Source: an uncultured Cellvibrio sp.
GTDB taxonomy: Bacteria; Pseudomonadota; Gammaproteobacteria; Pseudomonadales; Cellvibrionaceae
Direction: 5' to 3'
Assembly (NCBI GenBank): GCA_946482345.1
Contig: CAMLRJ010000253.1
Location: 1 to 5,660, forward strand
DNA: 5,660 bases
Below are positions 1 through 5,660 of the stretch, piece by piece. Position 1 is the first letter of the stretch; every line of letters starts with the position of its first letter. Both the position numbers and the translations under genes were made by a program. Below the pieces are notes generated by a model. That model saw nothing but the letters and a program-made list of their open reading frames with translations, ran no database searches and was not told where the DNA came from.

Positions 1-1794
1 ATCTTTACCATGAATTAGCAGGATCGGTATCTTTACGTTTTCAACCATGCGCGCAGGGGAAGTCTTTTTTAGTTGACCGGAGTCTTCTCCAAATTGTTTG
101 CGTGCGACAGTAGAGTTTACAAAGTTTCTATAACTGTCTTGCATTTTTATCAAATCAGACATACCTGCAAAACTGATTGCACATTGAAATAAATCCGGTG
201 TTTTGGTTGCGCCCATTAATGCCGCATAGCCACCATAACTTGCACCTGCAATACACACGCGTTTGGGGTCAGCAATTTTTTGCTCTACCAAATACTTCAC
301 CGCATCTTCAAGGTCATCCTGCATTTCCAAACCGTAACCACCGACAGCTTTCATCATAAAATCATGACCGTAACCAGATGAGCCCCGGAAGTTTGGTTGA
401 AAAACTACATAGCCTCTATTCGCCATAAATGTGGAAAAAATGTCGAAATCCAAACCGTCTTCGCTCATAGGGCCACCGTGCGGAAAAATGATTGTGGCAG
501 AAGGTTTGGCGGCAAAATTTTTAGGTAAGGACAAATAGCCATCCAATTCCAGGCCATCACGAGCTTTATATTTTCTTAATTCTTTTTTAACCAATATGTC
601 TTCCGTCAAATCGGGATAAGAACTTGCGAGATAGTCCAGTGTTTTTTTATCTCGATCACCAAAATAATAAGTGCCGGGGTTGGTGCTGTTGGATGAGAAC
701 AAAATATATTTTCTGGCATCATCACTCATGCTGATGATGTAGTTGTTGGTTTTCGGCATGGCTTTGTCTATACCTGCCTGGAATGCCTGAAATTCTTTAT
801 TCCAGAAAATACTTTTTGAGCTGCCATCGTTGTAATAAAGGCCAACCACTTCTTTAAGTGCTGTTGAATAAATTAAACGACCGTTAACATCATAATTTTT
901 ATTGCTCAGGATTAATTCTTTCGGAAATCCCGGTTTTGACAAATCCACTTTGAATAATGCCTGGCGCCCTTCATGATCAGCGAAAATAAATAATTCATTT
1001 GAGTTGCTGCCAAATCCGGCGATGCTGATACCGGGTTCATCCAACACCACATACTGCCATGCTGTTGTCCATTTTTCAGTTTTCGGGTCAAGAATTTTGT
1101 AGGTAACTGTTCGTTTTTTTTCATTGTAGGCTTCGCCAACGCGAATAACGCCCTCGCGATCTGCATACCAGGATTTGATCACGTTTGATGATTTTTTGTA
1201 TTTAGACATTCTTCCGTTGTTTACATTTACTTTGTAAACAGTTTGATGCAAAGGAACTTCGCGATCGACACTTACCAATATATGATCAGGATCATCCTGC
1301 ATAAAACTGATGACGTTGTCCTGAAATTGACTCACCCAGCCTGCATCTTCATCAGGCTTAATCAGCACCATCAGTTTCGAATCTTTTTTTGCATCTTTTG
1401 CAAGCAAGCGACTTTGCATGTATTTGGTGCCATTCAGCATGCGGCTGTCAAATCGTGCGCTCATTAAAAGGCGATCATTATTGGCCCATGTCACCCAATT
1501 AAATTTAAATTGTTTGTTGTCGGTTTTAGCGGGATAAAATGATTTGTTGGTGGCCAGATCCATCACCATCACAGCTGTGTCACCACCTATATTTCTTAAT
1601 GCAAGAATATGGGTTCCATCAGGCGATAATTCTATATCTTCTATCGCCGCATCGTTGTAAAAAACTTCCAGAGGTAAAAGCCCGCTGCTGTTAGTTGTTT
1701 CAGTGGCATATGCACCACTGCTGATCACAGAGATTGCCAAAAAGCATAAATGAATAAAACGACAATTGTAGTAGTTGTGAAATCCTGATTGCAT
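1..1794 (-). CDS. Secreted prolyl-oligopeptidase-family (S9) serine peptidase, 3' end beyond window
   Basis: This is a serine peptidase of the S9 alpha/beta-hydrolase family, expected to cleave peptides in the periplasm or outside the cell. The frame is open from the start codon to the left edge (598 codons visible; relatives are usually about 650-700). Residues 1-30 look like a signal peptide: a hydrophobic stretch FIHLCFLAISVI followed by a likely cleavage site after AYA (residue 30). Residues about 31-400 form the beta-propeller-like region, opening with DIELSPDGTHILALR, a typical PD40/WD40-like blade. The hydrolase domain starts near residue 410 (DGLELDGYLSLP) and carries the oxyanion-region motif HGGP (His439) and the nucleophile elbow GASYGG (Ser519). 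The last visible residues are LLIHGKD, so the catalytic Asp, expected one codon later, and the His are outside the window. The start is well fixed: an in-frame stop lies 12 bases upstream, and GAGGA (1804-1808) sits 9 bases before the ATG. It is divergent from trkA. Substrate specificity cannot be read from the sequence. Confidence 0.93.
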   Translation of the reverse strand, partial: MQSGFHNYYNCRFIHLCFLAISVISSGAYATETTNSSGLLPLEVFYNDAAIEDIELSPDGTHILALRNIGGDTAVMVMDLATNKSFYPAKTDNKQFKFNWVTWANNDRLLMSARFDSRMLNGTKYMQSRLLAKDAKKDSKLMVLIKPDEDAGWVSQFQDNVISFMQDDPDHILVSVDREVPLHQTVYKVNVNNGRMSKYKKSSNVIKSWYADREGVIRVGEAYNEKKRTVTYKILDPKTEKWTTAWQYVVLDEPGISIAGFGSNSNELFIFADHEGRQALFKVDLSKPGFPKELILSNKNYDVNGRLIYSTALKEVVGLYYNDGSSKSIFWNKEFQAFQAGIDKAMPKTNNYIISMSDDARKYILFSSNSTNPGTYYFGDRDKKTLDYLASSYPDLTEDILVKKELRKYKARDGLELDGYLSLPKNFAAKPSATIIFPHGGPMSEDGLDFDIFSTFMANRGYVVFQPNFRGSSGYGHDFMMKAVGGYGLEMQDDLEDAVKYLVEQKIADPKRVCIAGASYGGYAALMGATKTPDLFQCAISFAGMSDLIKMQDSYRNFVNSTVARKQFGEDSGQLKKTSPARMVENVKIPILLIHGKD

Positions 1795-1994
1795 TATAAA
1801 AAGTCCTCAATGTTTTCTTTTTTTGATCAACAATAATCCGAATATTGTCGGTCGTCAGCATGATAAATTCATCTTCAAAAATCAATCTCTATCGTGACAA
1901 TTCCGTGGTGTACTTGCGCAGTTAGATTCAGACGCCCATAATCGCGCCCATTAAGCAATTGACATTCTGATGAGCGATCGACAAAGGTCTTTTC
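1795..1994. promoter_or_regulatory. Divergent intergenic region between S9 peptidase and trkA
   Basis: These 200 bases separate two genes that start away from each other, so they should hold both promoters. The ribosome binding sites are visible: GAGGA on the minus strand (1804-1808) for the peptidase, and AAAGG on the plus strand (1983-1987), 7 bases before the trkA ATG. A perfect -35-like TTGACA lies at 1959-1964 on the plus strand, but the bases at the right distance downstream (about 1982-1987) do not resemble a -10 box and overlap the ribosome binding site. I therefore cannot name a promoter with confidence. I see no convincing gene in this spacer: the plus-strand frame from 1860 encodes only 21 residues. 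Confidence 0.4.
1830..1848. repeat. Short inverted repeat, possible operator
   Basis: ACAATA (1830-1835) and TATTGT (1843-1848) form a perfect 6-bp inverted repeat around a 7-base spacer. It lies 36 bases upstream of the peptidase start and about 150 bases upstream of trkA. The size and dyad symmetry fit a binding site for a dimeric regulator, but an AT-rich 6-bp repeat can arise by chance. No T-tract follows, so it is not terminator-like. Confidence 0.2.
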
Positions 1995-3380
1995 ATGAAA
2001 ATTATTATTTTGGGAGCGGGGCAGGTTGGTGGTAGTTTGGCTGAACATTTGGCCAGTGAATCCAACGACATTACAGTAGTGGATACCGACGAAGCGCGTT
2101 TGCGTGAATTGCGGGACCGTTTGGATATTGGTGTGGTGGCGGGCCCTGCGGCGCATCCTGATATTTTGATTCAGGCAGGTATCGAAGATGCTGACATGTT
2201 GGTTGCAGTCACCAGCGATGATGAAATTAATATGGTGGCTTGTCAGGTTGCTTATTGTTTATTTAAAACGCCGACAAAAATTGCGCGGGTGCGTGCAACG
2301 TCTTATCAAAATCATCACCAACTTTTTGATTCGGGTGCAATACCCATAGACGTTATTATCAGCCCCGAGCAATTGGTTTCAGAATATATTTATCGTTTGA
2401 TTGAACAACCCGGTGCTTTGCAAGTATTGGATTTTGCCGATGGCAAAGTGCAATTGGTTGCGGTTAAGGCTTATCACGGTGGTCCGTTAGTGGGTCAGGA
2501 ATTACGTTTTTTGCGTGAGCATATGCCATCGGTTGAAACGCGCGTTGCTGCCATTTATCGTAGAAATCGAGCGATAGTGCCGACAGGCTCAACGGTGATT
2601 GAAGCCGATGATGAAGTATTTTTTATTGCGACACGCGCTGATATCCGCGCGGTCATGAGTGAGCTGCGTCGATTGGAAGTGGCCTATAAACGCATCACGA
2701 TTGCAGGCGGCGGTAATATTGGTTTGCGTTTGGCAAAAATGTTGGAAAATCGTTACAAAGTTCGCGTTATTGAATTTAACAAACAGCGTTGCATTAAATT
2801 ATCAGAGCAACTTGAGCGTGCAGTTGTACTTGAAGGCAGTGCATCGGATAAAGCGTTGCTAATGGAAGAAGGAATAGAAGACACAGATGTTTTTCTTGCG
2901 CTGACCAATGACGATGAAGCCAACATTATGTCGTCGATGTTAGCCAAGCGATTGGGTGCGCGCAAAGTGATGACACTGATCAACAATCCCGCTTATGTGG
3001 ATGTAGTGCAGGGTGGTGACATCGATATTGCAATTTCCCCACAAACGACCACCATTGGCAGTTTGTTAGCGCATGTGCGTCGCGGCGATATTGTGAGCGT
3101 GCATTCGTTGCGTCGCGGCGCGGCTGAAGCAATAGAAATTATTGCGCACGGCGATGCCAAGTCATCGAAAGTTGTCGGTAAAGCACTTGAGGATATAGAC
3201 CTTCCCGAAGGTGCGAATATAGGTGCAATTGTACGAGCGGCTGCAAAAGGCAGTGAAGTATTAATCGCACACGATAATCTGGTGGTACAAAGTGGCGACC
3301 ATCTTATTATTTTCCTGTTACAGAAAAAACATATTCGCGATATAGAAAAATTATTTCAGGTTGGCTTTAGTTTCTTTTAA
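1995..3380 (+). CDS. trkA: Trk system potassium transporter regulatory subunit TrkA
   Basis: TrkA is the cytoplasmic ring-forming subunit that binds NAD+/NADH and nucleotides and gates the TrkH/TrkG potassium channel at the inner membrane. The 461-residue product matches the usual length (458 in E. coli) and has the complete tandem layout: RCK_N about 1-125, RCK_C about 140-225, RCK_N about 233-350, RCK_C about 370-455. The first Rossmann fold has GAGQVG (7-12) with the ribose-binding acidic residue Asp30. The second has GGGNIG (238-243) with Glu260. Family signatures include [46 protein letters not shown] and [16 protein letters not shown], and the C-terminus ends FQVGFSFF. The start follows AAAGG (1983-1987) at 7 bases and begins exactly at the canonical [12 protein letters not shown]. 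In many gammaproteobacteria trkA follows rsmB; here the gene upstream is a divergent peptidase instead. The downstream kinase begins after 26 bases and is probably in the same transcript. No frameshift or missing key residue is seen. Confidence 0.98.
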
Positions 3381-4774: not shown

Positions 4775-4782
4775 TGATAAGC

Positions 4783-4810
4783 GCAATCGCAAAGCAAAAT
4801 GTGCGATTGC
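4783..4810. terminator. Perfect 9-bp hairpin between convergent genes, probable terminator
   Basis: GCAATCGCA (4783-4791) and TGCGATTGC (4802-4810) form a perfect 9-bp stem with a 10-base loop, 8 bases after the kinase stop and 41 bases beyond the stop of the opposing DUF4276 gene. Neither side has a strong T-tract immediately after the stem: the plus side continues AAACACATGG, and the minus side continues GCTTATCATT. A better T-rich run, GCGCTTTTTATTT, lies at 4841-4853 on the plus strand, and its GCGCTT can pair with AAGCGC (4779-4784) as an alternative outer stem. Its position between convergent transcription units supports a bidirectional terminator or a 3'-end stabilising hairpin. Confidence 0.5.
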
Positions 4811-4851
4811 AAACACATGGCATCCGATGAATTGTAAATGGCGCTTTTTAT

Positions 4852-5487
4852 TTAGGATCTTAAATTCAATAATTGGTCATAGAAACCAGTAAAGCTGGGT
4901 GATTTATTTAATTGAATATTCATGTGGGGTGTTATTTTTTTAGCCCACTGACACTTTTCCATTGCGACTCGCCTATCTCTCTTTGGAAGATCCGCTATGT
5001 GACTACCAATGATTCTTGAAAGTAATTCCCACGTGCCGCAAATAGAATCCTGAATATATTGGCTGTAGAGTGCTTGATTAAATGTTGGGTAAGAGTTTTT
5101 AATTGCTTGAGCGTCACCGAGAAACCAAGCTTCCAGTTCTTCTACTGCAAAGCAAAATTTGATTGCCAAGTTGGATTTTTCGGGAATTAACTTTTTTAGC
5201 TCGCTATGAATTTCGTCTTGATCAAGCTTGTCCAAATCTAACAGAACCACTATTACCCTGTTGCTGTCATTGACTTCGGCATATGCAGCAATTTTCATAG
5301 GCAGCTGCCCTAGTAGGGATCTGTCTAGCGGGTTATATGGTTTATTATTGCTTGGTATTGATCCAATTCCTTGGTGCTTATGGATTTTCCACGTGTTGCC
5401 CTCGCCGTACGAACCTAAAATTTTAGGCATCAGAATAGATAATGTTGTGAGCTCGCATTGACCTTCAACTAATATTTCAAAGTGCAT
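4852..5487 (-). CDS. DUF4276 family TOPRIM-like protein, partner of the adjacent ATPase
   Basis: This 211-residue protein matches what I know of the DUF4276 (RloG-like) family. It opens with ILVEGQCE (Glu8 and Glu12), resembling the TOPRIM/OLD-type N-terminal acidic motif. A hydrophobic strand then leads into LLDLDKLD with Asp84 and Asp86, the DxD pair expected for metal binding. The most diagnostic segment is AVEELEAWFLGD (114-125), the family's E-x-EAW-x-x-x-D signature. The C-terminal third is basic and helical (PKRDRRVAMEKCQWAKK) and could contact nucleic acid. No signal peptide or membrane segment is seen, so it should be cytoplasmic. The ATG lies 5 bases after the ATPase stop, and its likely ribosome binding site AGGA (5498-5501) lies inside the end of the ATPase gene, so the two are almost certainly co-translated. 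Family knowledge suggests a metal-dependent nuclease or related enzyme controlled by the ATPase, as in two-gene defence modules. Activity is inferred, not shown. Length is usual for the family and the frame is intact. Confidence 0.82.
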   Translation of the reverse strand: MHFEILVEGQCELTTLSILMPKILGSYGEGNTWKIHKHQGIGSIPSNNKPYNPLDRSLLGQLPMKIAAYAEVNDSNRVIVVLLDLDKLDQDEIHSELKKLIPEKSNLAIKFCFAVEELEAWFLGDAQAIKNSYPTFNQALYSQYIQDSICGTWELLSRIIGSHIADLPKRDRRVAMEKCQWAKKITPHMNIQLNKSPSFTGFYDQLLNLRS

Positions 5488-5492
5488 TCTTG

Positions 5493-5660
5493 TTAGATCC
5501 TGCTGTCAATATGATCGCTATACCATAGACTTCCAAGGGTTAACCCTTGATTGACCATTTCTACAACTTCTTGAACATCAGATGCTCTCGTTATTTTTGA
5601 AAAGCCATCATTTTGCTTTTCAAGTATCCAAACTTCAGAAGGGTTTAGCTCGTCTATTAG
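5493..5660 (-). CDS. C-terminus of an AAA/ABC-type ATPase (AAA_21-like), 5' part beyond window
   Basis: The last 55 codons of a gene entering from the right edge are visible, ending in TAA at 5493-5495. The peptide begins LIDELNPSEVWILEKQNDG, continues through FSKITRASDVQEVV and ends LGSLWYSDHIDSRI. This matches the tail of RecF/OLD-like AAA_21 ATPases: the segment after the H-loop (usually T-H-S-P followed by L-hydrophobic-D, then P-E-x-V), an acidic K/N-D-G turn, and a closing LGxLW motif. Walker A, Walker B, signature motif and H-loop histidine would all lie outside the window, so ATPase activity is inferred. The stop codon is 5 bases from the DUF4276 start, and the last codons carry that gene's ribosome binding site. 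Such ATPases paired with TOPRIM-like proteins usually act as sensors or clamps that control the partner. Its total length and any fused N-terminal domain are unknown. Confidence 0.75.
   Translation of the reverse strand, partial: LIDELNPSEVWILEKQNDGFSKITRASDVQEVVEMVNQGLTLGSLWYSDHIDSRI

Follow-up and report, generated by a model that had tools for sequence, protein, structure and literature searches.

Pairs of an ATPase and a TOPRIM-domain protein recur as anti-phage systems, although most of the TOPRIM nucleases in them have no known function (PMC12409363). GajA of Gabija combines both activities in one polypeptide and is partnered with a UvrD-like helicase (PMC10568477), and the TOPRIM-linked OLD-ABC pairs of BREX loci have been described as back-up suicidal effectors of BREX (PMC12839542). 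HEC, the name of a further series of systems, stands for Hma-embedded candidate: several HECs are active, with HEC-06 being named (PMC12988326), HEC-05 and HEC-06 are discussed in PMC11411939, and a 2024 preprint by Payne et al. is cited for HEC in PMC13092281 and PMC11411939. HEC-01 itself appears as a defence system in PMC12724379, where it is one name in a list; the words HEC and DUF4276 are both absent from the PADLOC paper (PMC8565338), and our literature search found no paper containing ‘DUF4276’. Here we analyse a 5,660-nucleotide stretch of an uncultured Cellvibrio sp. (contig CAMLRJ010000253.1, the whole of which stretch we call the window), at one end of which an ATPase gene and a DUF4276 gene stand side by side. 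Judged by its matches, this pair is an example of the catalogued candidate system HEC-01 and no new kind of system, and we think it very likely that HEC-01 is a two-gene accessory immunity module, with an OLD-type ABC ATPase as sensor and a two-metal TOPRIM nuclease that stops infection. A sequence-only reading of the same DNA had held the DUF4276 version to be much less characterised than other ATPase–TOPRIM pairs, which went too far, since PADLOC lists both genes as HEC-01.

The predicted effector (HEC-01B) is encoded on the reverse strand at 4852..5487, as a 211-residue DUF4276 protein with an ATG start, predicted to be a TOPRIM nuclease with a C-terminal helical part. It matches Pfam PF14103 at 50 bits against a cut-off of 30.2 and the PADLOC HEC-01B model at 1.2e-73 over residues 1-207 of 211; NCBIfam returned no family for it. 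The same HEC-01B model is matched by 45/45 rows of our alignment A1, which consists of the window protein and 44 of the 120 homologues listed, 45-87% identical to it. The predicted sensor gene (HEC-01A) enters the window with its last 55 codons and stop (5493..5660, reverse strand; stop codon at 5493-5495), and the remainder of the gene, motifs included, lies beyond. Its 55-residue tail finds HEC-01A as its best PADLOC match (1.3e-21, positions 350-402 of 406) and is 65% identical to the tail of the ATPase of a relative, L001, while Pfam gave no family for these 55 residues at E 0.01. Between the two genes there are 5 bp (5488..5492), and a Shine-Dalgarno-like AGGA lies 10 nt before the DUF4276 ATG, within the ATPase gene.

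Relatives supply the part of the ATPase that the window lacks. A scan with A1 over one genome per species (84,980 species) turned up 232 relatives, and the 80 best of them form our locus set (numbered with the prefix L). In 79/80 of these loci the end of an open reading frame (ORF) on the same strand falls somewhere from 21 bp ahead of the DUF4276 start to 11 bp past it, the exception being L033, whose record begins 151 bp before the DUF4276 gene. A Walker A motif (GxxxxGKS/T) is present in 74/79 of these upstream ORFs; among the five without it, three (L005, L018 and L030) are truncated by the end of a contig and the other two (L003 and L019) are short. All 44 of the 74 that were aligned carry the Walker A lysine, the SDG signature core, two Walker B glutamates and the H-loop histidine. 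Four full-length ATPases of relatives match HEC-01A at 1.1e-183 to 2.3e-201, and Pfam AAA_21 was found in 4/4 of those scanned. Because of the HEC-01A match of the tail, together with the adjacency and Walker A motif seen in relatives, we take the upstream gene to be an AAA_21/OLD-type ABC ATPase. The sequence-only reading had likewise proposed an ATPase gene, 5 bp from a DUF4276 gene whose ribosome binding site lies inside it, and all of these points hold. Two side observations belong here. The upstream frames of L003 and L019 (355 and 54 residues) are short or without the N-terminal motif, possibly marking a decayed or misassembled partner. In addition, the PADLOC labels appear swapped, in that the model PDLC04143, labelled ‘HEC-01A’, matches DUF4276 proteins (45/45) and PDLC04144, labelled ‘HEC-01B’, matches the relatives’ ATPases at 3e-94 to 4e-100 (4/4).

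How, then, does the pair compare with its better-known cousins? With PADLOC HEC-01 it shares both protein matches and the adjacent, co-oriented genes (a 5-bp gap here, the same arrangement in 79/80 loci), and no tested feature differs, the first ~350 positions of the window ATPase being beyond the window. From Class 2 OLD proteins and GajA it differs in that ATPase and nuclease are separate ORFs, in the window as well as in all 79 loci where an upstream ORF can be seen, and in that the sequence similarity of the DUF4276 protein to them is barely detectable. Among the 15 PADLOC families that match the DUF4276 protein up to E 1, neither AriB of PARIS nor AbiLii of AbiL is found; four relatives’ ATPases do cross-match AbiLi (1.1e-28 to 2.4e-24), far below HEC-01A. 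PARIS, AbiL and Gabija were thus rejected as identities of the pair, which has no AriB or AbiLii match and in which ATPase and TOPRIM are unfused. Septu is nearest on the ATPase side: the model of the L001 ATPase (mean predicted local distance difference score, pLDDT, 87.5) has PtuA of Septu/retron PtuAB as its best Foldseek match (9.7e-14), and VIA-align places it closest to SMC, Rad50 and PtuA heads. The partner of PtuA, however, is the HNH nuclease PtuB (PMC12409363), whereas the partner here is a TOPRIM protein.

The predicted fold of the DUF4276 protein is indeed TOPRIM-like, as had been proposed from the sequence: in structure comparison of the model, OLD nuclease domains are the best match, followed by the PARIS complex. 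In the model Glu8 follows the first strand (2-7) and a DxD motif stands at the end of strand 77-84, which is the TOPRIM arrangement. Nine residues are identical in 45/45 rows of A1 (Glu8, Asp84, Asp86, Glu116, Glu117, Glu119, Trp121, Asp125 and Lys178), and residue 12 is Glu in 43/45 and Asp in 2, an invariance that comes the more easily as the rows are rather closely related to one another. If BpOLD is taken as the guide (PMC6755086), Glu8 (codon 5464..5466, reverse strand, as are all the codons that follow) would be a metal-A ligand corresponding to E400, Glu12 (5452..5454) a metal-B ligand corresponding to E404, and Asp84-Leu85-Asp86 (5230..5238) the counterpart of D455/D457. These four acidic residues had been put forward as the metal site from the sequence alone; they are conserved, but the list was incomplete, as the BpOLD analogy leads one to expect further residues. 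On that basis Glu117 and Glu119, in the predicted metal-B motif Glu117-Leu118-Glu119 at the start of the helical part (5131..5139; analogue of T506-x-E508), and Lys178 in the long penultimate helix (4954..4956; helix 172-188 in the model; analogue of K562) should also belong to the active site. The model has six helices from residue 119 onward, and the invariant Glu117, Glu119 and Lys178 fit the helical domain of Class 2 OLD proteins, with weak support from hhalign: it pairs Glu117-Leu118-Glu119 with the TLE of GajA-like OLD proteins at low confidence only, and Lys178 lies outside the reach of that alignment. PF14103 may, incidentally, span distinct groups, because the genome of L002 (Sansalvadorimonas) carries a second, different DUF4276 gene that scores far higher against this Pfam model, at 156 bits compared with 42.5 for the HEC-01 type.

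The pair is accessory, as the sequence-only reading had anticipated, and patchily spread. The nearest genome, by a TrkA that is 89% identical, was for that reason taken to give the family of the window, and A1 found a match in 0/144 genomes of this family. In the positive control, a set from another order that includes the centre genome, itself a source of loci, A1 matched in 6/394 genomes (three of them over the full length within a single frame, one split into two pieces and two partial). When the genome contigs that gave 232 relatives with A1 were scanned with the single window protein, 19 stretches were picked out, none of which was confirmed. Matches in mobile elements are rare, at 2 in 72,556 plasmid records and 1 in 50,697 phage records, but those in plasmids are telling: the conjugative plasmid pGLE121P3 carries the pair with type IV secretion genes on one side and the relaxase gene on the other. 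On Rahnella PRA1 the pair lies in a prophage-like region, between phage replication/antitermination genes and lysozyme/terminase genes. The A1 scan of IMG/VR gave 50 pattern matches and 0 relatives, an absence that is not proven by the two short patterns used. With the Vibrio ruber pair as query, distant blastn gave no match in complete E. coli genomes; as the protein database does contain a relative from E. coli (P0030, 51%), either that search was too insensitive or the P0030 strain falls outside the genome set. In a quick tree built from 83 DUF4276 rows, in which many forks are open, 31 changes of the phylum label are needed (the minimum being 18). For Thermodesulfobacteriota, well-supported branches make at least 5 changes unavoidable, more than one label change being no proof of transfer.

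In some relatives the pair has defence genes as neighbours. We surveyed 24 of the 80 loci, hand-picked and mainly isolates with flanks, taking up to 3 ORFs per side (137 of 140 ORFs scanned). At E<=1e-25, 85 PADLOC families (25 shown) were matched near the pair, with models of BREX, methyltransferases and DISARM-like helicases at the head; the 126 genes around 16 control loci matched 4 families, each with at most 2 members. To set 85 against 4 exaggerates the contrast, because one protein can match many models and few proteins account for the 85 families. Single-protein scans placed PglX before the pair and BrxHI and PglZ after it in L035 and L049, and a Zorya/Dpd-type helicase upstream of it in L020; 2/10 of the neighbour proteins scanned in this way (one each from L035 and L042) matched nothing. 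With tblastn across all 80 loci, L070 showed PglX before the pair with BrxHI and PglZ ~3.4 kb after it, and L018, with its upstream side cut, showed BrxHI and PglZ directly after it. The BrxHI match in L049 covers only 534 of 964 residues, and L016, L059, L068 and L079 have only a 29-32% identical helicase match. No BREX gene was found by tblastn in the 17 control loci. In L018, L035 and L049 BrxHI starts within ~20 bp of the end of the DUF4276 match. The BREX-linked pairs need four changes on the tree and do not form one group, with short-flank loci scored ‘no’; three changes are also possible, because L035 and L049 share one unresolved group. These four loci fit the published BREX TOPRIM/OLD-ABC dyads (PMC12839542), from which the window differs in having no visible BREX gene; the words DUF4276 and HEC are absent from the main text of that paper. 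We regard as possible, though rather doubtful, the wider idea that HEC-01/DUF4276 is a split branch of OLD, a free-standing 211-residue Class 2 catalytic half (TOPRIM plus the helical domain with the metal-B site) held by a separate ABC ATPase, and that BREX loci have repeatedly and independently taken it up, placed after PglX and before BrxHI, as a suicidal reserve that fires when restriction is blocked.

In the mechanism that we favour, the OLD-type ABC ATPase would sense infection, having until then kept the DUF4276 protein inactive or positioned it; an infection signal would alter the nucleotide state or assembly of the ATPase, and the freed DUF4276 protein would act as a two-metal TOPRIM nuclease, so that infection would be halted, most likely via disabling of the infected cell. 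On the model of PARIS and the Class 2 OLD nucleases we infer sensing, release and two-metal chemistry, and we likewise infer the anti-phage activity of the pair. Several observations weigh against this picture. Our literature search found no experiment on the HEC-01 pair, and the flanks of the pair visible in the window are ordinary genes. Strong BREX genes occur in only 4/80 loci (L018, L035, L049 and L070), no family near the pair has more than 3 members of 137, a single BrxHI protein matches 13 families, and the control loci (16-17) all come from one bacterial order and are not phylum-matched. The phylum label is clustered beyond chance on the tree (31 changes against a shuffled mean of 44.3, as low in 0/200 shuffles), so that vertical descent, or spread among near kin only, could account for much of the distribution. 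As for the fold, Foldseek on its own gave no match for the DUF4276 model at E<=0.001 in the PDB or viral models, the best match of the sequence profile among solved structures (E 2.4) is chance-like, and hhalign against GajA-like OLD proteins is weak, with a probability of 13.5% over 12 columns, 35% over the same 12 columns when only the C-terminal region is compared, and no result in global mode. Retron Eco2 (TOPRIM), moreover, scores 6.0 against the DUF4276 model, level with unrelated rows.

Which other explanations deserve a hearing? The most serious concerns the substrate: the effector might cut RNA, most likely tRNA anticodon loops like AriB, which would make the pair a PARIS analogue with a distinct effector subfamily. 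We consider this a realistic possibility, if not the one we would choose. We lean slightly towards DNA over tRNA as the predicted substrate, since among solved folds OLD nuclease domains come nearest, thin evidence that comes down to fold rank alone. An addiction-like toxin–antitoxin unit, in which the ATPase restrains a toxic nuclease and the pair mainly stabilises mobile elements, would suit the tight two-gene coupling and the location on a conjugative plasmid, and the PARIS ATPase does hold its nuclease inactive until a trigger arrives (PMC12409363). The restraining partner here, however, would be a large conserved ABC ATPase whose hydrolysis motifs are intact in all 44 aligned sequences. 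A typical antitoxin is small and labile, and matches are rare in both plasmids and phages at the frequencies given above, which makes this alternative unlikely.

Least probable of all, in our opinion, is a housekeeping DNA-repair or stress unit outside phage defence, made up of a RecF/Rad50-type ATPase and a processing nuclease. It is difficult to reconcile with the failure to match the protein in 144/144 genomes of the nearest family and 388/394 of another order, with the finding of the pair both on a plasmid that is conjugative and within a prophage-like region, and with BREX genes in 4/80 loci. An immunity module of sensor ATPase and TOPRIM nuclease is the reading that we retain.

Elsewhere the window carries a divergent S9 peptidase gene, trkA and a Ser/Thr kinase gene (from ORFs and Pfam); it contains no tRNA gene, and the HEC-01 pair runs convergent to the trkA and kinase genes. 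The picture of accessory cargo placed behind a terminator, drawn from the sequence alone, stands as regards this orientation and is weak as regards the terminator: a strict terminator scan flagged none in the 77-bp gap (4775-4851), and there is only a hairpin with a 9-bp inverted repeat at 4783-4810, between the kinase and DUF4276 genes (-19.4 kcal/mol for 86 bases folded). The G+C content of the DUF4276 gene, 0.39, falls between the extremes found for 636-bp stretches across the window (0.368 and 0.476), which means that composition offers no argument for transfer. Neither of two genome sets yielded a clean, readable empty site. In the seven genomes with the closest TrkA (75-89%; 336/381 matched) no homologue of the kinase, S9 peptidase, ATPase tail or DUF4276 protein was found within 19.9 kb around trkA, and in the ten with the best kinase matches (39-48% identical; 88/390 matched) no trkA homologue was found in the stretch around the kinase. 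The genes before trkA in the former seven are presumably def-fmt-rsmB. In the nearest genome the S9 homologue (72%) lies ~57 kb from trkA on the same contig, and the gene order around trkA in the window (1-3380) is unusual for its kin, being either rearranged or a misassembly.

What does this mean for the family? In essence the sequence-only reading was correct. The general idea of such pairs has already been published; what is new is the window’s example, the assignment of a fold and an active site to the DUF4276 branch, and the placements in BREX loci. An uncharacterised catalogue entry thereby gains a predicted active site (Glu8, Glu12, Asp84, Asp86, Glu117/Glu119 and Lys178), and the occurrence in BREX loci of four relatives that do not form one tree group provides an evolutionary hint. 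Finally, if the pair senses anti-restriction proteins in the manner of PARIS, it would help to explain how restriction-type systems are insured against the countermeasures of phages.
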